IMG/VR virus record: IMGVR_UViG_3300031539_000306
Coordinates: 1-24,245 of that record
DNA length: 24,245 bases
Direction: 5' to 3' (one strand)
DNA from: a virus
Shown here: one piece after another, positions 7,524 to 17,442 of the stretch
Layout of the letters: the number at the start of each line of letters is the position of its first letter
Numbering within the stretch: position 1 is the first letter of the stretch
The notes under the pieces: model-generated
Told to the model about the DNA's origin: nothing
What the model saw: the letters and a program-made list of their open reading frames with translations, nothing else
The model's database searches: none
Translations under genes and position numbers: made by a program

Positions 7524-8648
7524 ATGAGTTTAATTTTAAATGGAGATCTTACCAAGCTGAAAAACCTTGGAATGGGAATGTATAAGGATGCCGTAGATGC
7601 TGGCAAACCTTTCAAAGTGTGGCTTGAAGATTACGTTGCAACCAAAGAGGGTGGAGGGTTTGAAACACCATATCGTGGATTGTCAAACATGGAAACCTTC
7701 ATGGAAATCAGGCGTATGAAAGCAGCCGGTGAAACTGTCCCAATGACCGCCTATGAGTTGGCTCTGGCCGCTCACGATATTAAGGCATTCGGGTCGATCA
7801 CTGACCCAGTTTCAAAGTTTTTCACAAATGCCAGTACATCTACATTGTTTCCAGAATTCATCGGAACCAGAATTTATACTGGCGCAATCGTATCTGCGAT
7901 CTGGCCGTTTTTCATGCAGGAAACAGTTAACATTACCGGATTAACTTTCAAGAAAATCTATCTCAATGATACTGCTCCTCAGAGACAGGGTGGGCGTGTT
8001 GGTCGAGGTGGGTTGTTCCCGAAAAAGACTTTCACTGTCGGAGACGAGAGTGTGAATCTTGAAAAGTACGGTGTGGAAATTGAATTTGATTATGAGATTC
8101 TTGCAGATCAACCTCTTAACCTTTACGGTAAAGAACTTGAAAAAATCGGGAAACAAATCGGCGTCGATGAAACTGATGATATGTTTTACATCCTGGTCAA
8201 TGGTGATGGAAATTCGAATGGACTCGAATCAGCTCAAACAGTATCTGCAGTAACAAGTGGATCGGTCTCAAAGCTCGATATTATCGATCTTGCAACTGCT
8301 TGCCCAATGCCGTATAATCTGAATGTGTTTGCTGGCCCGACTGCTTATATGCGCCTGTATTGGGATGCTCTTTCTGATATGACGAACCCGAACTTGCAAA
8401 AAGCTGAAATCCCCATACCGCTTCCAATGGGTTATAGATGGGATTCTGGTCAAATGTTATCCGTCACTGATCGATTTTACGGAGTCGATAAATCGCAAGC
8501 TATCTCTTATGTAACTAATGACGCAATGCTATTAACCGAGACAGACCGCATAATCAATAAGCAAGTTGTAACCACAGTCGTTAGCAAGAGAGGCATTTTT
8601 ACAGTCAATACTCAAGATGCGATTGGGTGTCTTGATATTACCGCTTAA
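7524..8648 (+). CDS. Major capsid protein, HK97 fold
   Basis: A 374-aa protein whose layout fits an HK97-type capsid subunit. There is a helical N-arm (1-110). An E-loop-like region follows around 150-175 with basic and glycine residues (APQRQGGRVGRGGLFP). A long spine-helix-like segment comes next (about 195-225, with GKELEKIGKQIGVDETDDMFYILVNG). P and A domain strands run to the end, including VFAGPTAYMRLYW and a TDRIINKQVV segment typical of the closing strands. GAGAGGT gives a ribosome site. It lies directly downstream of protease, scaffold and decoration genes. No long N-terminal delta domain seems present, in keeping with a separate scaffold. The residue limits are approximate and the fold is inferred from pattern and position. 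Confidence 0.85.
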   Translation: MSLILNGDLTKLKNLGMGMYKDAVDAGKPFKVWLEDYVATKEGGGFETPYRGLSNMETFMEIRRMKAAGETVPMTAYELALAAHDIKAFGSITDPVSKFFTNASTSTLFPEFIGTRIYTGAIVSAIWPFFMQETVNITGLTFKKIYLNDTAPQRQGGRVGRGGLFPKKTFTVGDESVNLEKYGVEIEFDYEILADQPLNLYGKELEKIGKQIGVDETDDMFYILVNGDGNSNGLESAQTVSAVTSGSVSKLDIIDLATACPMPYNLNVFAGPTAYMRLYWDALSDMTNPNLQKAEIPIPLPMGYRWDSGQMLSVTDRFYGVDKSQAISYVTNDAMLLTETDRIINKQVVTTVVSKRGIFTVNTQDAIGCLDITA

Positions 8649-8687: not shown

Positions 8688-8981
8688 ATGAATAAATTAC
8701 GAGTAAGAGTTACGGAGCCACTGATTAGGGTCGATCTTGACGATAATGTTCTCGATGTTTCTCATAAGATGTTTGAGAAAGACCCGAAAGCAGTCTATGA
8801 GGTTCCTGATACAATATTCTGGCGAAGGTTAGAAGAGCCGGGAAAGATCACTAACAAGAAACCGTTACTGGTCAGGGTTGGAAGGGTCGCCGCTTCTGAT
8901 GAGGAAGATGAGATCGAAGATACCAAGCCTACTCCCAAACCTAAGACCGAGGGTGTTCGCCGAGAAAAGGGAGGTAAGTAA
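8688..8981 (+). CDS. Small conserved-type head protein after the capsid gene, 97 aa
   Basis: Unassigned. Residues 1-65 form a compact region with strands (LRVRVTEPLIRVDL) and an FWRRLEEPGKI segment; residues 68-97 are a low-complexity charged tail (acidic run, then P/K/T repeats and basic end). ATAGGAGAG precedes the ATG. It overlaps the next gene by one base (TAATG). Many tailed phages have a small protein here that acts in capsid or connector assembly, but I cannot name the family. Confidence 0.6.
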   Translation: MNKLRVRVTEPLIRVDLDDNVLDVSHKMFEKDPKAVYEVPDTIFWRRLEEPGKITNKKPLLVRVGRVAASDEEDEIEDTKPTPKPKTEGVRREKGGK

Positions 8982-11959
8982 TGCGTAAACTCTTTTCATT
9001 TATAATGGTCGTATTATTGCTGGTGATTGGTGTTTCCAGTACATACGGTCAGAATTTGCCTGCCACGATTACAAACAGGGCAACTCTCGCATTGTGGATT
9101 CGGACAGGCACATTTACATTCACAAATAAGACACTGACCAGCCCGACTATTAATGGCCTATCGCTTACTGGAACGATTTCAATTACCGGAACAAGTTATC
9201 TGAATCTGGGTACGGCTCTGGTTCCACTGGTGTTAACGACTACGCCACTTTTTACGGTGTATTCGACATCGGCTTCGGTTGCTGGAACAATCCGTTCAGC
9301 CATTATTAATCAGGTACACACCGGAGACGGATACGCGACTATAGAAGCGTTGAGAGTCAATGTCAGTTCTGCCGTCCAGACCGGATCGTGGACTAATGCG
9401 ATTGTCGCACGGATTGCGTACAGTGGAGCGACTGGCGATGCAGGCGGGGGTTTGGCAGCAGCACTTTGTGCTGAAGTTGTTCTTCCTGCGATTACCGGCC
9501 CAGCCGGTTCATACTTTGCCGTCGATCTTGAATTTGATGCACAGGCGAGTTATGTGGCAAATGCCGGAACCGGATACCCGACCGCTTATATTAGGTTTGG
9601 GTTATACGGCAATGGTTCTGCAATTGCATCCTTTGAGGATGACGCTTATTTCATGCAGATGTCAACCGACTTTTCAAGTGCTTCTGGAAATATGTGGTAT
9701 AATAATACTTTGAGAGTACAACTTGAAACCACAGATTTTTTCATTGCACTTTCGGACGCAGAGGGTGAATATTCATCCGCTTATATGATTGACATTTCTA
9801 ATGCAACCAATGCCACAAATTTAACGACTGCTTCTATTGCAACCGAGGGTGGACTTGCCGTTACACTGGAAACTTTTCTTGGTGATGATTTAGATATGTC
9901 CACTTCTGGAACTGGTGTTTACGACATCACATTAAAAGACAATGTGGCTGATGCTCTCAGTATTGTACGTGGTACAACGGATATGATGGAATTCACTTCA
10001 ACATCAGCTTCGCCGTTAATTACCATTACACCGGCGACCACAATTACTGGGCTGTTGACGGCAAACGGAAGCGTGGCAGTTGGGGATGCTGATTATATCG
10101 GTATAACTTCAAATGAGGTTATCACTTTTGCGGTCGCAGGAACAATAACAGCTTCTGGTGCTGATTTTGTAATTGGTGAAACTGCCGCCGAAAACGTTCT
10201 CAGACAATTGAGGATAATCGGTGATGCTGATTCGGATGCTGGTGGAAATATCACATCGGAAACACTGACAATTGAATTGAATACCGACGCAACGCCCACA
10301 AATTCAACTTGGGATTTCTCAAGTACACAGGGTGCAGGTTATGCGTTTGATAAGGCAGTGAGTGTAACTGGCCTGATCACTTCAAGTGCTGGGTTTGTTT
10401 TAGGTGATACTGATTATATTGGTATTACTTCGAACGAGACTATTTCTTTTTTAGCAGCTGGATCAATTACTGTTAATGGAGCAAATTTTCTCGTTGGCCC
10501 GGTGACTGCATTAGATGAAGGCAGACCGACCTTTGCTATTGTTGGCGATGCAGACACTGATGGAACAGCAACAACTGAAGCATTAACGTGGACGTTGGCC
10601 GGAAATACCGATCCTACTGCAGCGACTTGGGGACTTACGTCAACTCAAAGTGCCGGTTATACTATTGATAAGGCGGTAAGTGTAACGGGTTTGGTTACGT
10701 CGTCGGCCGGTTTTGTTTTGGGCAACACTGATTACATCGGAATAACAGGCAATGAAATAATTACATTTACTACGGGTGGCACTATAGATTTTACTGGCGC
10801 ACTTGTTACAATTGTCAGTCCCGATCTTGCAGCGGCCGCAAACAATGCTCTGATCATAACCGCAACGACTTCTATTACAACGGGTTCGAATTATGCGGTT
10901 GAAATTACCCACACCAATACCGCTGGTTCTGCTGCAAATTTTGCAGGTTTATTTGTCACGACTACAGCCGGAGCGGATTTCGCAGGTGCTATGGGTATTA
11001 TGTCACGGGTTGATATGGGTGCATACGAGGGCATAGTTGGTGGAGCGAATGCTTTATATGCCGAGCTTTTATTGTCTAACAAAATACAGACCGGCGGCGA
11101 GTATCATGTTCTTGTTTTGACACTTGCTGAAAGTGGAAGCACTTTTTCACCCAGTATTACCGTTACTCGTCCTACGACCTTCACGAAGTATGAAACTTGG
11201 GGTGATGGTGCTGAACACATAGACGATTATGCGTATCTGTTTTATCTGAACGGATTCACGGCAGAGGCAGGTCATTTAGTATCGCTCACAAAACAAACAC
11301 TTCGAGTCAATATTGGTCAAGTAGCCCGTTATATGGTATTGAGTCAAATGCAGGACGGACTTGGTTTGGGTATCAGCGGAACACCGATGGTATTGGCGGC
11401 AACTACAGATCAAGCAACTGAAATTTTTACAACCGGCTCGTCAACATCTGGTAATCATTTTCATAATTATATGAAGGCAACCAGTACAGCACAAACTACA
11501 GGCGGTCATTTTGCTCTCTACGTAGAGAATGATGTGGCGTTTCAAGCAGCCGGACAAATGGGCGGTTATTTTAAAGTTGATATGAATGCGATTCAGGCTC
11601 CCACGGGTGGCGCAAGTGTTGTCAATGCCGAACTGGTTATGCCGACCGGTGTACAGAACGGCGGACAGTATAACGCATTTGTAGCTGACATCGAATGCCC
11701 TGCAACCATGGATATGTTTTACAATGCTGCTATACCGTCTGGTTTTATGAAATTGGAAGTCTATGGGAATGGTACTGCTGTGACTGACTTTAACTTAAGT
11801 GCTAATCTATTTAATTTGAGTGGTATTACTGCAGCGACAGATGCAATGCTTGAAGAAACTACAGTAGCGGATGCAAATGTTAGTATAACTCATTCAATAA
11901 GAATTAATATTGGTGGAACACCGTATTACATAGCTTTAAATACAGCTAACACTTGGTAA
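8981..11959 (+). CDS. Large repeat-containing protein with signal peptide, 992 aa
   Basis: Residues 1-24 are a clean Sec signal peptide: basic n-region (MRKLF), hydrophobic core (FIMVVLLLVIGV) and a small-residue cleavage region ending STYGQ. The mature 968 residues are dominated by G, A, T, S and alternating hydrophobics, i.e. beta-rich. There are about 2.5 tandem units of 106-107 residues (355-461, 462-567, 568 to about 612). A second module type occurs three times: each copy has a G-Y/A-L-A-E-L/V-x-L-P-like stretch and closes with an IRINIGGTPYYIAL-like strand (about 108-260, 665-790, 860-992). This could be a tail fibre, head fibre or a surface protein of the infected cell. GGGAGG precedes the ATG. 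The signal peptide is unexpected for a virion protein assembled in the cytoplasm. Confidence 0.75.
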   Translation: MRKLFSFIMVVLLLVIGVSSTYGQNLPATITNRATLALWIRTGTFTFTNKTLTSPTINGLSLTGTISITGTSYLNLGTALVPLVLTTTPLFTVYSTSASVAGTIRSAIINQVHTGDGYATIEALRVNVSSAVQTGSWTNAIVARIAYSGATGDAGGGLAAALCAEVVLPAITGPAGSYFAVDLEFDAQASYVANAGTGYPTAYIRFGLYGNGSAIASFEDDAYFMQMSTDFSSASGNMWYNNTLRVQLETTDFFIALSDAEGEYSSAYMIDISNATNATNLTTASIATEGGLAVTLETFLGDDLDMSTSGTGVYDITLKDNVADALSIVRGTTDMMEFTSTSASPLITITPATTITGLLTANGSVAVGDADYIGITSNEVITFAVAGTITASGADFVIGETAAENVLRQLRIIGDADSDAGGNITSETLTIELNTDATPTNSTWDFSSTQGAGYAFDKAVSVTGLITSSAGFVLGDTDYIGITSNETISFLAAGSITVNGANFLVGPVTALDEGRPTFAIVGDADTDGTATTEALTWTLAGNTDPTAATWGLTSTQSAGYTIDKAVSVTGLVTSSAGFVLGNTDYIGITGNEIITFTTGGTIDFTGALVTIVSPDLAAAANNALIITATTSITTGSNYAVEITHTNTAGSAANFAGLFVTTTAGADFAGAMGIMSRVDMGAYEGIVGGANALYAELLLSNKIQTGGEYHVLVLTLAESGSTFSPSITVTRPTTFTKYETWGDGAEHIDDYAYLFYLNGFTAEAGHLVSLTKQTLRVNIGQVARYMVLSQMQDGLGLGISGTPMVLAATTDQATEIFTTGSSTSGNHFHNYMKATSTAQTTGGHFALYVENDVAFQAAGQMGGYFKVDMNAIQAPTGGASVVNAELVMPTGVQNGGQYNAFVADIECPATMDMFYNAAIPSGFMKLEVYGNGTAVTDFNLSANLFNLSGITAATDAMLEETTVADANVSITHSIRINIGGTPYYIALNTANTW
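10043..10816 (+). repeat. Tandem ~106-codon repeats inside the large repeat protein
   Basis: Three units start at 10043, 10364 and 10682. Each opens with a [IV]TGL-x-T motif and carries DYIGIT-x-NE about 16 residues later (D371, D478, D584). Units 1 and 2 also share GDAD and DKAVSVTGL segments; unit 3 is cut short. Protein similarity is high while the bases have drifted, so the repeat is old and not an assembly artefact. Confidence 0.8.
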
Positions 11960-11982
11960 TTGTAATATTTAACCGGCTTATC

Positions 11983-12017
11983 GGGGACTGTGCCGACATA
12001 AACAGTCCCCACTTTTT
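11983..12017 (+). terminator. Rho-independent terminator
   Basis: A perfect 9-bp stem (GGGGACTGT 11983-11991 with ACAGTCCCC 12002-12010), 10-base loop, then AC and five T (12013-12017). It follows the large repeat protein gene by 23 bases. The GAGGAG ribosome site of the next gene comes directly after the T run. Confidence 0.85.
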
Positions 12018-12037
12018 AAAAAGAGGAGATACGAGAA

Positions 12038-12421
12038 ATGATTAAAAAAATCATGTTAACAGTGGTGATGTGCTTTGTATTTGTCGGATCAATTCACGCA
12101 GAAGTAATCGAAGTAAACACGATGGAGCGAATGGTATTATTGTCCTTGTTGCCAGTGGAAGCAAGTTACGCTACTTGGAAAATTATTCAAGAACTACGAA
12201 TGGAGTTGTCTTTCACGGAAGAGGAACTTGTTTTAATTGATTTAAAACCCGATGTGAATGGTAATACAACGGCAAATTGGGAGGCAGTCGATCCGAAGTC
12301 AGTTGAATTCGGAGTTACCGCAGCAAGATTTATAGAGGATGCCCTTCTTGCTTTAGACGAACAAGAAAAACTATTACCAGAACACGTTAGTTTGTATGAG
12401 AAATTTATTGTGAAGGAATAA
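12038..12421 (+). CDS. Small protein with signal peptide, phage 'LYEKF'-type family, 127 aa
   Basis: Residues 1-21 look like a Sec signal peptide (MIKKIMLTVVMCFVFVGSIHA, with an AEV cleavage context). The mature part is helical: a LLSLLPVEASYATWKIIQELRMELSF-like stretch, an EEL-x-L-x-DLK segment, then FGVTAARFIEDALLALDEQEKL and HVSLYEKFI near the end. I have the impression that signal-free versions of this helical domain are common unassigned proteins in tailed phages, but the family has no known function. AGAGGAG gives the ribosome site, right after the terminator hairpin. Confidence 0.65.
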   Translation: MIKKIMLTVVMCFVFVGSIHAEVIEVNTMERMVLLSLLPVEASYATWKIIQELRMELSFTEEELVLIDLKPDVNGNTTANWEAVDPKSVEFGVTAARFIEDALLALDEQEKLLPEHVSLYEKFIVKE

Positions 12422-12431
12422 AAGAATTTTT

Positions 12432-12488
12432 GCGTGAGGCAGGATTATTATGGATTCAGATGGATGCCACGTAGGTTCTGCCTTACGC
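12432..12488 (+). promoter_or_regulatory. Long RNA hairpin upstream of the zinc-ribbon gene
   Basis: Bases 12432-12444 pair with 12476-12488 (13 bp, two G-U pairs), with a 31-base loop. No T run follows, so it is not an ordinary terminator. The stem ends eight bases before the GGGGAGGA ribosome site of the next gene. It may be an mRNA stability or translation control element; that is inference. Confidence 0.6.
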
Positions 12489-12507
12489 ACCCCAAGGGGA
12501 GGATACA

Positions 12508-12690
12508 GTGCCGTTGAATGATTTCAGATGTCTGCAATGTAGAACGATCTTTGAACGACTCACCTCAACATACAAGAGAAGAACAAAATGCCCGTACTGT
12601 GGCGCTATGGCTCTCAAAATGATTCCCAGAGGCGTAACTCCCGTATTTAAGGGATCGGGATTTTATACTACTGATTACAAAGGGAAATGA
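12508..12690 (+). CDS. FmdB-type zinc ribbon protein, 60 aa (GTG start)
   Basis: The sequence follows the FmdB / CxxC_CxxC_SSSS family: MPLNDFRCLQC (C8, C11), then an FERL segment, KCPYCG (C28, C31) and a small tail ending GSGFYTTDYKGK. Family members are small putative regulatory zinc ribbons found in bacteria and phages; their biochemical role is not settled. The start is GTG at 12508, supported by GGGGAGGA five bases upstream and by the conserved MP start of the family. It opens the accessory island and is only three bases from the next gene. Confidence 0.85.
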   Translation: MPLNDFRCLQCRTIFERLTSTYKRRTKCPYCGAMALKMIPRGVTPVFKGSGFYTTDYKGK

Positions 12691-12693
12691 GAC

Positions 12694-13449
12694 ATGATGC
12701 AGCTTATCCATTCAAGTGGTACAGAATTTTTCAGTAAAATATTTACTGTAATGTATAATCTGAAAAACGTAAATAAATACGGTTATAATTCATATGAGCC
12801 ATGCTTATTTTATGGAATGTATTTCAATGAAGATTCTATACGGTTAATGGAGCATAGGGGACAGGCGATTATATTATGGGCTGGATCGGATATTAGAAGT
12901 AAGGGTCAACCATTTATTACAAAAAATACACCTACCAAAGTTTTGCATTTGGCAGCATCTCCATCGATTGAGCAGAGATTAAAAAGGGTAGGATTTTCAT
13001 ATCGCAGAATCCCGAACATTGCATTTACAAATTGGGATTACTGGAAACCCGAACCGCTTGGTGAAAAGATTTATTTCTATGCGCCGTCCGATTTTTATGG
13101 TCTTAACTGTCTTGACCAGATTAAAGAATTTGGTTATCCGGTTATCCATATTGATCGAGCGCAGAGACACGACATCTCAAAACTACGCAACATTTATAAG
13201 GAATGTTTTATTGGGTTGAGATTAACACCGGAGGACGGAAACTCTGCAACGGTCTTAGAGATGGGATTAATGGGAAGGAAGACTATCTGGAATGGCGACC
13301 AGTTGTCGGCTATACCGTGGAATGATTTTGATAAGCTCAATGAATTAATTTGCGTGGAAGCAAAAAAGATCGGAACAAGTCAAGATGCTTTTGCAAAAAA
13401 AGTTTATGATTCAGTTACTAAGACAACCGAGGGGTGGTTTGATGTATAA
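12694..13449 (+). CDS. Glycosyltransferase-like protein (GT-B type), 251 aa
   Basis: This looks like a shortened GT-B glycosyltransferase. There is an IILWAGSDIR motif (W62-R68) of the kind seen at the donor/acceptor cleft in several phage and bacterial glycosyltransferases. A region around residues 172-200 (GLRLTPEDGNSATVLEMGLMG) fits the nucleotide-sugar binding segment with its conserved acidic residues. Total length is below the usual 350-400 aa, so the N-terminal domain may be reduced. Two ATGs (12694, 12697) are possible. The end overlaps the small lipoprotein gene by eight bases. Substrate unknown; a second glycosyltransferase lies 1.5 kb downstream in the same island. Confidence 0.7.
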   Translation: MMQLIHSSGTEFFSKIFTVMYNLKNVNKYGYNSYEPCLFYGMYFNEDSIRLMEHRGQAIILWAGSDIRSKGQPFITKNTPTKVLHLAASPSIEQRLKRVGFSYRRIPNIAFTNWDYWKPEPLGEKIYFYAPSDFYGLNCLDQIKEFGYPVIHIDRAQRHDISKLRNIYKECFIGLRLTPEDGNSATVLEMGLMGRKTIWNGDQLSAIPWNDFDKLNELICVEAKKIGTSQDAFAKKVYDSVTKTTEGWFDV

Positions 13450-13597
13450 ATTAATAATAGGTTTTTTGTTGTTTATTTTATTGTCTTGTACTTACAATCC
13501 AAACATTCAAGATAATTCTATATGCGAGCATAGACAGACAAAGGTATCATGGGATGGTATTGAACGATGTTTGCAATGCGGGGCAATAATTGAATGA
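13442..13597 (+). CDS. Small lipoprotein with zinc-ribbon-like C-terminus, 51 aa
   Basis: An in-frame ATG at 13385 would put the start deep inside the glycosyltransferase gene; the ATG at 13442 gives a standard lipoprotein signal instead: MYK, a hydrophobic core (LIIGFLLFI) and lipobox LLSC with the lipid-attached cysteine at 16. The mature part is only about 36 residues and contains C28-x-H30 and C43-x2-C46 (CEH, then RCLQCG), a likely zinc site. It would sit on the membrane. Phage lipoproteins of this size often act in superinfection exclusion, but a C-x-H...CxxC lipoprotein is not a type I can name. Its stop overlaps the radical SAM start by four bases. Confidence 0.65.
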   Translation: MYKLIIGFLLFILLSCTYNPNIQDNSICEHRQTKVSWDGIERCLQCGAIIE

Positions 13598-14373
13598 ACA
13601 GTCCGAACTTATTGAAGATTGAAACAACTGACAAATGTAATTCGGAATGTGTTTTCTGTCTACATCGAAAACATGCAGGGCACGATATGGACTTTGATCT
13701 ATTTAAAAAGATAGTCGATATGTTTCCGGATGCGCAGACTGTTTCACCTCAATTTTTCGGAGAGCCTACAATGTATCTGCAATTACCAGAAGCGATTCAA
13801 TATGCAAAGGATGCAGGGAAAAGGGTAAACTTTTATACAAACGGATCTTTTATTTATGGCAATATGGTATCGGTGGCGAGCGCAAAACCGGATCATATCA
13901 TATTCTCGGTCGAGGCAGACAATAAAGAACTCTATGAAAAGATAAGGGTCGGACTTAATTGGAGCAGATTCTTGTTTAATCTTGATGCAATGCAGGAATT
14001 CTGCACAGACACAACTATTACAATCAGGATGACAATCTGCAAAGAAAATCAGAATCGGATTGGAGAGATTAAAGCATTCTGGCAAGACAAGGGATTTTAT
14101 GTTGTGGCAGTTCCGGAGGCTCCCATAAAAAGATTTAAAACAGATAAATATAACAACTATAAATGTGATCGACCAATGAGACAGTTAATTGTAAAATGGA
14201 ATGGCGACGTGGTTTTTTGCTGTGTTGATTTATGGGGAAAATATGTAATAGGTAATGTCAAGAATGAGGGGGAGTCAATTTGGATGAATAAAAGATTTAA
14301 TGAATTAATAAAAACAATTAATACGGAAGACGCCCCAACTTTATGTTTAACATGTGGATTTCGGACAAGATAG
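13594..14373 (+). CDS. Radical SAM protein with SPASM-type C-terminal domain, 259 aa
   Basis: The CxxxCxxC motif (C15, C19, C22 in TDKCNSECVFCLH) binds the [4Fe-4S] cluster that cleaves S-adenosylmethionine. Further core features follow: a GEPTMY segment (GE motif) and strands of a partial TIM barrel. The C-terminal part carries SPASM-like cysteines (C191, C209-C210, C251, C254) with the usual GDVVFCCVDLWGKYVIGN pattern, suggesting an auxiliary iron-sulfur cluster. Such enzymes modify peptides, sugars or alcohols through radical chemistry. There is no recognisable peptide-binding RRE domain at the N-terminus. It is coupled to the small lipoprotein gene (ATGA). The substrate cannot be read from the sequence; a role with the adjacent sugar and methyl transferases is inferred from the layout. 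Confidence 0.88.
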   Translation: MNSPNLLKIETTDKCNSECVFCLHRKHAGHDMDFDLFKKIVDMFPDAQTVSPQFFGEPTMYLQLPEAIQYAKDAGKRVNFYTNGSFIYGNMVSVASAKPDHIIFSVEADNKELYEKIRVGLNWSRFLFNLDAMQEFCTDTTITIRMTICKENQNRIGEIKAFWQDKGFYVVAVPEAPIKRFKTDKYNNYKCDRPMRQLIVKWNGDVVFCCVDLWGKYVIGNVKNEGESIWMNKRFNELIKTINTEDAPTLCLTCGFRTR

Positions 14374-14384
14374 AAGGAACGACA

Positions 14385-14933
14385 ATGGGACAAGAACAAA
14401 ATAGTCAATTTTACAATAATATATACGATTCGGTTTTAAGTTATCAACATCACTATGCCGACAGTTTGTATTATAAACTGTGGCAAGAATTAAGTAAATG
14501 GATTGAACCAGACATGAAAATCATTGATCTTGGTTGTGGGTCGGGGCAATTAGCAAATCTTTTATACGATATTGGGATCAAAAATTATATTGGGATAGAT
14601 TTTAGTCAGACTGCAATTGATATGGCAAATAAAATTAATCAAATTAAAACATTCCAATTTATTTGTGCTGATTTTAGAACTTGTCCGATTCCCGAAGGTG
14701 ACACTTATATGTTATCAGAAGTGCTTGAACACGTTCAAGATGATCTTGAATTATTAAAGAAAATTCCTGATAATAAACGGATTATTGCCAGTGTTCCAAA
14801 TTTTGATTGTTCAGGACATGTTAGATATTTTTTAAATGAAAATAGTGTTAGTAAAAGATATAATAAAATTATCAATATTGAATACTTATATAATGTTAAC
14901 AATAAATTTTTTGTTTTTATAGGAAAAAATTAA
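14385..14933 (+). CDS. Class I SAM-dependent methyltransferase, 182 aa
   Basis: The Rossmann motif DLGCGSG (D48-G54) is clear. A second strand ends at the acidic residue in YIGIDFSQ (D72), motif II-like CADF is at 94-97, and SEVLEHV (111-117) is the typical post-IV segment of Methyltransf_11/23 enzymes. An in-frame ATG at 14343 exists, but 14385 is preferred because it follows AAGGAACG and does not overlap the radical SAM gene. At 182 aa it is a small enzyme; the C-terminus is basic. The acceptor is unknown: sugar, lipid, protein or small molecule are all possible. It sits between radical SAM and glycosyltransferase genes, so methylation of a glycan or glycolipid is a reasonable guess. Confidence 0.85.
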   Translation: MGQEQNSQFYNNIYDSVLSYQHHYADSLYYKLWQELSKWIEPDMKIIDLGCGSGQLANLLYDIGIKNYIGIDFSQTAIDMANKINQIKTFQFICADFRTCPIPEGDTYMLSEVLEHVQDDLELLKKIPDNKRIIASVPNFDCSGHVRYFLNENSVSKRYNKIINIEYLYNVNNKFFVFIGKN

Positions 14934-14976
14934 TATAAAAGTTGCAGGTTTAAGACAGGACAGGAGAAACGAAAAA

Positions 14977-16038
14977 ATGAAAAAACCAACTATCGCATAC
15001 GTAACACAGCACAATTGTTTAAGAGTAACTAAGGAGTCGGTTTGTTTAATTGATCTCGGCTACAAGGTGCATTTATTGTCACAAGTAATGACCAATAATA
15101 GACATTATACCAGTCCTCACCAATGGATACAACTATCGGATTTTGAAGAGACTGTCAAGCTGATGGATAAAAGTATTGACATCTGGCACGTTCATAATCA
15201 TCCGAACTGGTTTGCATCAAAGATTAGAGAACTACTTCCAAAGTCGAAAATTGTATTCGATTATCACGATTCAAATTATTGGTTTATTGATCAGAGCCCT
15301 CTACATAATACGAGCGAATTAACGACATGGTATACAGAGGATATCGCAGTCAGATCCGCAGACGCTTTTATTGTCCCGTCTGAAAAGTGCAAAGAAGAAC
15401 TCCGGACACGAACAAGGAAGCCGATTAGGGTGGTACCGCCCGCCGTTCCGATTGCGATGTATGCGAATACGGAATGGAATGTATGGGGCGGATTAGTATC
15501 AGCTGGCGGCCATGCAACTGCATCTCGAAAGGGAGTTTTTCAGCATAATTCATGGCGGGATTACGGAGAACTTTACAAAGCATTGCAAGGGAAGCGAAAA
15601 GTCTTTGCATACTCTCCGTCATTTAATTTGGTCGAGAATGACAAGGTCGCTCAATATTATATGAACATGGGTGTCTCACTGAATAGATTTAATTATCCGG
15701 ATTTGATTGACAGGATTGGAGAACATACATGGAATCTGGTTGGGAATTTAAAACATACGAAAGTTATGGATTATATGGCTCCAAACAAATTCTATGATGC
15801 AATCGCCGCAGGAGTTCCAAGCCTTGTATTGAACGCAGAGAGTGTCGGTAATCTTGTGGAAAAATACGGGATCGGAATTTATATTAAAGGTGATGATACG
15901 GATTATATTATTGACCAGATTATGAAACGATGGGAAGAACACCACGAGAAAAGATATAATCTAATAATGAAACGCAGAAAATTCTCAATGGAAAATTATA
16001 TTGGACAAATAACCAGGTTGTATGAAACAATATTATAG
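14977..16038 (+). CDS. Glycosyltransferase, GT4-like, 353 aa
   Basis: A full-length GT-B enzyme. The N-terminal domain starts with IAYVTQHN and includes IWHVHNH (H71, the glycan-acceptor-side histidine pattern) and VFDYHD. The C-terminal nucleotide-sugar domain includes APNKFYDAIAAGVPSLV (N270 to about 284), the classic GT4 segment with its conserved residues, followed by a short YIKGDD region and a basic helix. In this family the donor is a nucleotide-activated sugar and the product retains anomeric configuration. GACAGGAG lies 9 bases upstream of the ATG. It is the last gene of the accessory island and directly precedes the neck genes. Acceptor not known: virion protein, phage-encoded lipoprotein or host envelope glycan. 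Confidence 0.85.
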   Translation: MKKPTIAYVTQHNCLRVTKESVCLIDLGYKVHLLSQVMTNNRHYTSPHQWIQLSDFEETVKLMDKSIDIWHVHNHPNWFASKIRELLPKSKIVFDYHDSNYWFIDQSPLHNTSELTTWYTEDIAVRSADAFIVPSEKCKEELRTRTRKPIRVVPPAVPIAMYANTEWNVWGGLVSAGGHATASRKGVFQHNSWRDYGELYKALQGKRKVFAYSPSFNLVENDKVAQYYMNMGVSLNRFNYPDLIDRIGEHTWNLVGNLKHTKVMDYMAPNKFYDAIAAGVPSLVLNAESVGNLVEKYGIGIYIKGDDTDYIIDQIMKRWEEHHEKRYNLIMKRRKFSMENYIGQITRLYETIL

Positions 16039-16049
16039 GGGAGGATTAG

Positions 16050-16538
16050 GTGGCGGCAAACGTAACAGTAGCAGAAGTTAGATACATAGGGAATTGGAAT
16101 GCAGTAGATATTCCCGATGCAGATTTGGACGGCATTTTTATACCGGCTGGTGATGCCTGGATTTCATTAAAACTTGAAACGACATTAGCATTATATACAA
16201 CGGCAAATACAAACAAGGGAGCGATTGCGAAGCAAGCCGAACTTTATTATGTCGGTTATCATATTGCATCCCGACCTACAAAAGAAGATTTCCAAGTTGG
16301 GCCAGTCAGGAGTGCTAGAGTAAAAGGCGATGAAGTTGTGGCAATGGCAAAAAACCTGAAAAGTCTATGTAAAGAGATGCTGGGACTTCTTGGATTGTCC
16401 TGGAGCAGTCACGACTTCACGGCAGTTGGTGGAGACAGCTATCATCCACTCGGACAGGACGATACAAACATTAATATGTCAGTAGCTCAGGATGATTCTG
16501 ATTATCCATTTAATTTAATGGGGAGAAAAATCGATTGA
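16050..16538 (+). CDS. Head-tail connector type protein, 162 aa (GTG start)
   Basis: Starts at GTG 16050 with GGGGAGG five bases upstream, the same type of site as the FmdB gene. The N-terminal part (VTVAEVRYIGNW then an acidic DIPDADLDGIFIPAGDAWI segment) resembles gp6/gp15-like head completion proteins, which form the ring beneath the portal. The middle is helical, the C-terminus polar. It is the first structural gene after the accessory island and is followed by other neck-sized genes, supporting the assignment by gene order. The family match is inferred from pattern only. Confidence 0.6.
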   Translation: MAANVTVAEVRYIGNWNAVDIPDADLDGIFIPAGDAWISLKLETTLALYTTANTNKGAIAKQAELYYVGYHIASRPTKEDFQVGPVRSARVKGDEVVAMAKNLKSLCKEMLGLLGLSWSSHDFTAVGGDSYHPLGQDDTNINMSVAQDDSDYPFNLMGRKID

Positions 16539-17011
16539 GCAACCAGACGAGATTGTTGAGTTGGTTATTAAGTAATCCGTTGTCCGAGTCGGCAACTATG
16601 AGCGTTATTACCGGGACTGCTTGCCCGTGTATGGCTTTTGGTAGAGCTGGATCTTATTCGGAAGAATGGCACAGAAAAAACTTGTCCGATGAGGATTGTC
16701 TAAGCACCGGCATAATCGATCCCAGTAAAACAACGACATCCACAACATTCAAGGGCATATTCTGTCCTCCTGCATTAGTGGCTTCTTCTGTTCCGACAGG
16801 ACAAGAAATATTAGCTGCGATTGGTGAGATTCGGGACGATGATTTATTATTATGGGGAGCGGTCAATACCAGCACAAATGCAATTGTAGACTTCACGGGT
16901 ACAAATGAATACATTGAATATATCACAAGGGATTCTATTAAATATTCGATTAAAAACGCTTATGAGATCCCGCAAATTTGTTCAGCCGCACATCTTAGGA
17001 GGCAAGCATAA
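16535..17011 (+). CDS. Neck/head-closure candidate with conserved cysteines, 158 aa (TTG start)
   Basis: TTG at 16535 overlaps the previous TGA and has GGGGAG nine bases upstream; the next in-frame ATG (codon 22) lacks a comparable site. The central region has a CPCM pair (about C29, C31), then SYSEEWHRKNLSDEDCLSTGII with a further cysteine. This Cys-x-Cys, tyrosine, W-H and D-C-x-(S)TG combination could bind metal. The rest is strand-like with a C-terminal helix, and ends in basic residues. Position between connector and gp10-like genes suggests a head-closure or stopper role. The family name is unknown to me. Confidence 0.55.
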   Translation: MSNQTRLLSWLLSNPLSESATMSVITGTACPCMAFGRAGSYSEEWHRKNLSDEDCLSTGIIDPSKTTTSTTFKGIFCPPALVASSVPTGQEILAAIGEIRDDDLLLWGAVNTSTNAIVDFTGTNEYIEYITRDSIKYSIKNAYEIPQICSAAHLRRQA

Positions 17012-17442
17012 TGAATCCTTCAATGTATGGCGGTCAGTCAGTGTCCTATGTCGATCCTACTGGAATGCACATGAAATTGAGAGCCGTTAAGTTGGTTATG
17101 GCAGAAACTATTCCGCCCTTGGTATTAAAGGAAGCGCAGGAAGTTTTTAGGGAAGCCAGAAAAAACCTGTCCGGCCCGAAATCCAATACTGGGAAAATGC
17201 CAGTTCCGAGAGTAACCGGTACACTGGACAGGGCATTAACATTAACTCCGGTCAGTCCTTCTGTGGCCGCAATTTGGATGAATAGGGTGATCGCCTACTA
17301 TGCACCCTATGTTCATGATGGAACAAGATATATGGATGGTCGACCTTATTTGGCCATGGCTATTCGCACACGCAGACCGATTGCGCAAGCGAATTTCCAA
17401 AGGGCATTATTGCAGGCAGTGAGAGGAGTTGGGAGAAGATGA
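17011..17442 (+). CDS. HK97 gp10-like neck/tail completion protein, 143 aa
   Basis: The segment TGTLDRALTLTP, a central YYAPYVHDGT stretch and the closing helix with FQRALLQAV form the pattern of HK97 gp10-type proteins (Phage tail completion / head-tail joining): an N-terminal helix, a G-x-L-x-x-S/A strand set with 'Y-A-x-x-x-H/E-x-G', and a final long helix. The protein is basic, as usual for neck proteins. The start overlaps the previous TAA (TAATG), and the end is coupled to the next gene through ATGA. The role is to join tail to head. Confidence 0.75.
   Translation: MNPSMYGGQSVSYVDPTGMHMKLRAVKLVMAETIPPLVLKEAQEVFREARKNLSGPKSNTGKMPVPRVTGTLDRALTLTPVSPSVAAIWMNRVIAYYAPYVHDGTRYMDGRPYLAMAIRTRRPIAQANFQRALLQAVRGVGRR

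Follow-up and report, generated by a model that had tools for sequence, protein, structure and literature searches.

A modular, exchangeable glycosyltransferase cassette behind phage capsid genes, possibly devoted to protein glycosylation

Between the major capsid gene and the connector gene of an uncultured phage lies a group of glycosyltransferase and sugar-tailoring genes, parts of which recur beside the capsid genes of other phages. We consider it an even call that these genes form a modular, exchangeable protein-glycosylation cassette, carried at a capsid-connector cargo site, that would decorate a phage protein late in infection with a methylated and oxidised sugar. The window, meaning the whole stretch of 24,245 nucleotides analysed here, is part of the 61,382-base uncultured phage contig IMGVR_UViG_3300031673_000041 (sequence matches of 99.99-100%), which has siphophage-type genes: a capsid gene of phrog_3922, a neck gene of phrog_5, and tape measure proteins.

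The left border of the insertion site is the major capsid gene (7524..8648; phrog_3922 major head protein, 8.8e-36), and the right border is a connector gene (16050..16538), with a neck or tail completion protein farther on (17011..17442; phrog_5, 3.8e-10). These three genes, and all those between capsid and connector, are on the plus strand. A small gene identified by synteny (8688..8981), retained in the cassette-free relatives L015, L017, L024 and L104, is followed by the gene of our candidate acceptor, a protein of 992 amino acids with an N-terminal signal peptide and 22% serine plus threonine (8981..11959), and by that of a secreted protein of 127 amino acids (12038..12421), which the relative L005 also has, immediately ahead of its GT2. 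The first-pass annotation reported a block of five genes from 12508 to 16038, and the block is indeed present, with open reading frames for all five and family evidence for members: an FmdB-type zinc ribbon of 60 amino acids with a GTG start (ZnR, 12508..12690; TIGR02605, 38 bits for a cut-off of 31.3), a GT-B glycosyltransferase (GT1, 12694..13449), a radical SAM enzyme (13594..14373), a class I SAM methyltransferase (MT, 14385..14933; PF08241, 5.6e-13; 49-50% identity to its counterpart in the relative L005), and a GT4-type GT-B glycosyltransferase (GT2, 14977..16038), the signature gene of the cassette. It omitted an open reading frame that follows GT1 and precedes the radical SAM gene, for a probable lipoprotein of 51 amino acids with a lipobox-like LLSC and a CxH...CxxC motif (13442..13597), so that the block counts six genes rather than five; the segment that is truly inserted is larger still, running from 8688 to 16038 and including the proteins of 992 and 127 amino acids.

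Gene calls followed a simple longest-ORF rule, which would start the lipoprotein at 13385 and the methyltransferase at 14343. GT1 and the lipoprotein gene overlap where the former stops and the latter starts, at 13442, and a like overlap joins the end of the lipoprotein gene to the start of the radical SAM gene. The methyltransferase probably begins at 14385, where a ribosome-binding site of its own precedes it, so that it and the radical SAM gene would be free of overlap. A ribosome-binding site can be recognised ahead of most cassette genes, including the one at 13442; together with the overlaps, these sites support co-expression, short of proof. The GC content of the methyltransferase gene (14343-14933) is 0.284, compared with 0.406 for the window, which suggests a recent import. 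Small secreted or lipoprotein genes gather at the cargo site, in the window (12038-12421 and 13442-13597) and in L005 (16168-16518), hinting at an envelope-related role of the site.

Both glycosyltransferases are soluble, with no membrane-spanning stretch in either. GT1 has no match in Pfam, PHROG or NCBIfam. Its predicted structure (model m9ed402790af8, pLDDT 78) would have the two Rossmann-like domains of the GT-B fold: Foldseek matches it to GT-B/GT4 enzymes of the PDB, the best being SdgB, with a probability of about 1.0 for several GT-B enzymes, yet with low TM values of 0.4-0.58. GT2 can be placed among the GT-B/GT4 enzymes more directly, by PF13439 above cut-off (1.8e-11) and by a C-terminal match to Gtf3 structures. 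By profile, its nearest solved structures are Gtf3-type glucosyltransferases, in a match that spans only about 90 residues of the C-terminal domain; among these structures 9hu9 and 9htx are named as Gtf3, and 3qkw and 3rhz are Gtf3 as well. The motif PNKxFDxxAAG is conserved among nine GT2 relatives. Gtf3 acts on Fap1, a serine-rich adhesin that is glycosylated prior to secretion, by adding glucose to its GlcNAc-modified form (PMC5207161).

The radical SAM enzyme carries PF04055 (2.3e-12, 47.9 bits for a cut-off of 29.5) and the CxxxCxxC motif of the superfamily, at C15, C19 and C22. The SPASM label given to it at first stands in so far as PF13186 scores above cut-off (1.3e-11); the cysteine pattern fits a Twitch domain, with one auxiliary cluster, better, since the C-terminal part has only C191, C209/C210, C251 and C254, where a SPASM domain would hold two clusters. 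The closest match by profile is BtrN (3.4e-24), which covers both domains and aligns with the three radical SAM cysteines as well as, through its auxiliary-cluster cysteines, with the four C-terminal positions. BtrN, itself of the Twitch type, oxidises an alcohol group in 2-deoxy-scyllo-inosamine, a small cyclitol (PMC9012708), so by analogy the phage enzyme would most likely oxidise a hydroxyl of a sugar. The early region of the same phage holds another radical SAM-like gene with CxxxCxxC, spore-photoproduct-lyase-like by eye (L094 15354 to L095 226), and the phage of L008 has an early-region gene of this kind too (L100 7153-7875).

Relatives with the same capsid type support the claim that the block interrupts the normal order of capsid and connector genes: the two are contiguous in relatives, and in L103 the site is nearly empty, the connector gene lying 152 bp from the capsid gene. 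The cassette is absent from L019, L020, L022, L023 and L106, and six others (L015, L017, L018, L021, L024, L104) have just a short signal-peptide protein at the site. GT2 is found there in five phages, namely the window, L005 and L008 (GT2 and a methyltransferase), L102 (an FkbM methyltransferase, a second glycosyltransferase and GT2) and L105 (a second glycosyltransferase and GT2). The idea of a late-region set for glycan modification is thus borne out by same-capsid relatives; that of one fixed system of five genes has to be given up, since no close relative has ZnR, GT1 or the radical SAM gene. GT2 alone is constant, and the exact set is unique to this phage, though parts of it recur together.

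A 232-kb bacterial contig contains a decayed prophage that belongs to this capsid group and lacks the cassette (L246 13948-19081). That contig, from the phylum of a KSB1 genome, has ordinary bacterial genes adjoining the capsid remnant, and temperate relatives are therefore likely. Capsid relatives are binned in metagenome-assembled genomes titled KSB1, Caldithrix, Terriglobia and others, phage-contig binning being unreliable as evidence of host.

The post-capsid protein of the group has a conserved signal peptide and start region, repeated beta-like segments, and a length that varies from under 200 to 1468 amino acids. Its long form, 532-1468 amino acids, is carried by all five phages that have GT2 (window 8981-11959; L005 11540-14056; L008 5243-9649; L102 11445-13043; L105 11368-13224). 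Glycosyltransferases accompany the long form in 5 of 5 phages and occur in 0 of 12 relatives without it, an arrangement that would arise once in 6188 if they were dealt randomly among the 17, a figure that is not a strict probability because the phages are related. The link between long protein and glycosyltransferases is limited to this capsid group: elsewhere, GT2 has no surplus of fibre-like proteins in its vicinity (10/197 near, 10/58 farther), and the notion that glycosyltransferase islands generally sit beside fibre-like proteins is unsupported there. The protein of 992 amino acids has no family match and no PDB match, and the AlphaFold model of its first 300 residues has a pLDDT of 34. 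Its signal-like N-terminus (hydropathy 2.30) is kept in all relatives and points to export, a Sec-type signal being unusual for a protein that presumably belongs to the virion module. The same phage contig encodes a second long signal-peptide protein, near the tail-fibre end (L096 5639-7381). Serine- or threonine-rich C-terminal extensions of the capsid protein were also considered as acceptor sites; none was seen in the phages that bear glycosyltransferases.

A profile search with GT2 yields 68 viral loci, or 56 clusters at 80% identity; E-values from searches for related loci are relative to the candidates only. A capsid gene was recognised in 44 of the clusters. In 36 of these GT2 lies downstream of it and on the same strand, and within 1.2 kb of it in 23 of those 36; in the other 8 GT2 lies upstream, near the terminase or portal gene. 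Locus flanks reach at most 10 kb and many viral contigs are fragments, so capsid genes farther off are uncounted. The downstream clusters comprise nine capsid families, one of which (c16) is putative, assigned by position and size only. The companions of GT2 are, by number of clusters, methyltransferases (19), second glycosyltransferases (18), hexapeptide acetyltransferases (17), GT9 (15), sulfotransferases (4) and radical SAM enzymes (3), besides Gfo/Idh oxidoreductases, a PIG-L deacetylase and a WecB-like epimerase. Members of the block are mostly not scattered and unlinked, as homologues of GT1 and of the radical SAM enzyme adjoin GT2 in other lineages: the former, 36-39% identical, come directly after GT2 in L182, L184 and L203, and the latter, 23-24% identical, are near GT2 in L202 and L223. 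The order in L202 is capsid, GT2, GT2, methyltransferase, radical SAM, glycosyltransferase, sulfotransferase, GT9. Several podovirus-like uncultured phages (L188-L199, L202, L209, L210, L224) have long sugar-synthesis islands, with methyltransferase, glycosyltransferase, Gfo/Idh, acetyltransferase, sulfotransferase and GT9 genes directly behind the capsid and decoration genes.

In the GT2 tree, the window belongs to a clade of nine (support 100/100) that mixes this siphophage group with c16 phages, and its starred branches require the phage type to have changed more than once. The gene has thus moved between phage types, and the cassette has been exchanged. Two different GT2 queries found no relative in 50,697 named phage records. 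Among bacterial genomes of the phyla of L105 (titled Terriglobia; 297 genomes) and L102 (titled Neomegalonema; 398 genomes), only known phage-like contigs matched at E<=1e-15, and on this basis we rejected the idea of GT2 as a common chromosomal enzyme there.

It is natural, given this content, to conjecture the following mechanism. The cassette would be expressed late, together with the virion genes, and the two soluble GT-B enzymes would attach sugars to a protein that the phage encodes and produces in the same period. Tailoring of the sugar would fall to the methyltransferase, which would methylate it, and to the BtrN-like radical SAM enzyme, which would carry out a two-electron oxidation of a hydroxyl. 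The acceptor would most likely be the product of 8981-11959, the long protein with a signal peptide and many Ser and Thr residues, with a capsid or decoration protein as second candidate, and the benefit would probably be concealment from receptors, defences or grazers, or an altered adsorption; the order of the steps, like the sugar itself, we infer.

The main rival to this conjecture, a serious one to which we give distinctly lower credence, is that the enzymes alter a glycan of the host envelope, such as precursors of lipopolysaccharide or capsule, either towards the end of infection or during lysogeny, and so block re-adsorption of progeny or superinfection. Companions of GT2 in other phages (the heptosyltransferase-like GT9, acetyltransferases, WecB-like epimerase and Gfo/Idh proteins) are typical of envelope glycan synthesis, the site holds secreted and lipoprotein genes, and temperate relatives, with a capsid gene in a bacterial contig, are likely. 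However, no gtr/wzx/wzy-type membrane glycosyltransferase, flippase or polymerase was seen in the cassette, its glycosyltransferases are soluble, and unrelated phages tie its position to the capsid gene, not to lysogeny genes.

It is unlikely, in our view, that the site is simply a tolerant cargo spot whose enzymes act on a small molecule or in general metabolism, the nearness to the capsid gene reflecting late transcription only. The unrelated secreted proteins at the site in relatives, the low GC of the methyltransferase gene and the small cyclitol substrate of BtrN (PMC9012708) all speak for such a reading, but numerous phages unrelated to one another combine at least two glycosyltransferases with tailoring enzymes, mostly within their virion modules. 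Hypermodification of phage DNA, with glycosylated and further tailored bases, is very improbable, even if phage glycosyltransferases often act on DNA bases, as stated in PMC12619734, citing Pyle et al. 2024: GT2 resembles Gtf3 and sits in the virion module, and we rejected this candidate on finding no base-activation family (thymidylate-synthase-like hydroxymethylase, TET/JBP, base kinase, deazaguanine) in the 31 larger proteins encoded elsewhere on the 61-kb contig. A more specific form of the glycosylation hypothesis, which we regard as quite doubtful, is that a secreted Ser/Thr-rich phage protein is glycosylated in the cytosol before export, with a sugar oxidised by the radical SAM enzyme, giving a glycoprotein coat on infected cells or released virions. 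The system would then be a phage counterpart to the glycosylation of serine-rich adhesins, passed among unrelated phages as a unit tied to the capsid gene.

GT2 points to a glycosyltransferase family with no member in 50,697 named phage records, one that signals the presence of glycan cassettes next to capsid genes of at least eight recognised families in uncultured phages. If phage proteins are indeed what the cassette glycosylates, natural phages may often be decorated in this way. In either case the cassette provides a searchable marker and enzymes to assay, including a candidate radical SAM sugar dehydrogenase.

A literature search found no paper describing this gene set, and the nearest known systems each share part of it. 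Phage-encoded virion glycosylation has been reported in a few groups, mainly actinobacteriophages. Phage serotype-conversion gtr clusters are phage-borne glycosyltransferases with tailoring potential; unlike them, the cassette has no membrane GtrA/GtrC-like proteins and sits in the virion module. In actinobacteriophages, a phage glycosyltransferase and a methyltransferase have been linked to virion glycans, according to PMC13313380 and PMC12619734, which cite Freeman et al. 2023. The likeness is one of gene kinds, both kinds being present in one genome in the window, L005 and L008. The present cassette has, in addition, another glycosyltransferase and a radical SAM enzyme, and its genes lie beside the capsid gene; our phages are uncultured and not shown to infect actinobacteria. 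Glycans of that type would sit on the C-termini of capsid or tail-tube proteins, and by an indirect test the capsid proteins of our phages with glycosyltransferases have neither a C-terminal extension nor an enrichment in Ser/Thr. BtrN, from butirosin biosynthesis, shares with the radical SAM enzyme both domains, the CxxxCxxC motif and the layout of auxiliary-cluster cysteines, but the two are distant by sequence and there are no butirosin-type genes here. The glycosylation of adhesins by Gtf3 (on Fap1) and SdgB provides the nearest structures of GT2 and GT1, respectively. Its serine-rich repeats are a feature not shown here, the similarity is confined to the C-terminal domain for GT2 and to the fold for GT1, and neither a Gtf1/Gtf2 pair nor accessory Sec genes are among the annotated cassette genes; yet there, too, cytosolic GT-B enzymes act on Ser-rich secreted proteins, and a Ser/Thr-rich signal-peptide protein adjoins the cassette.
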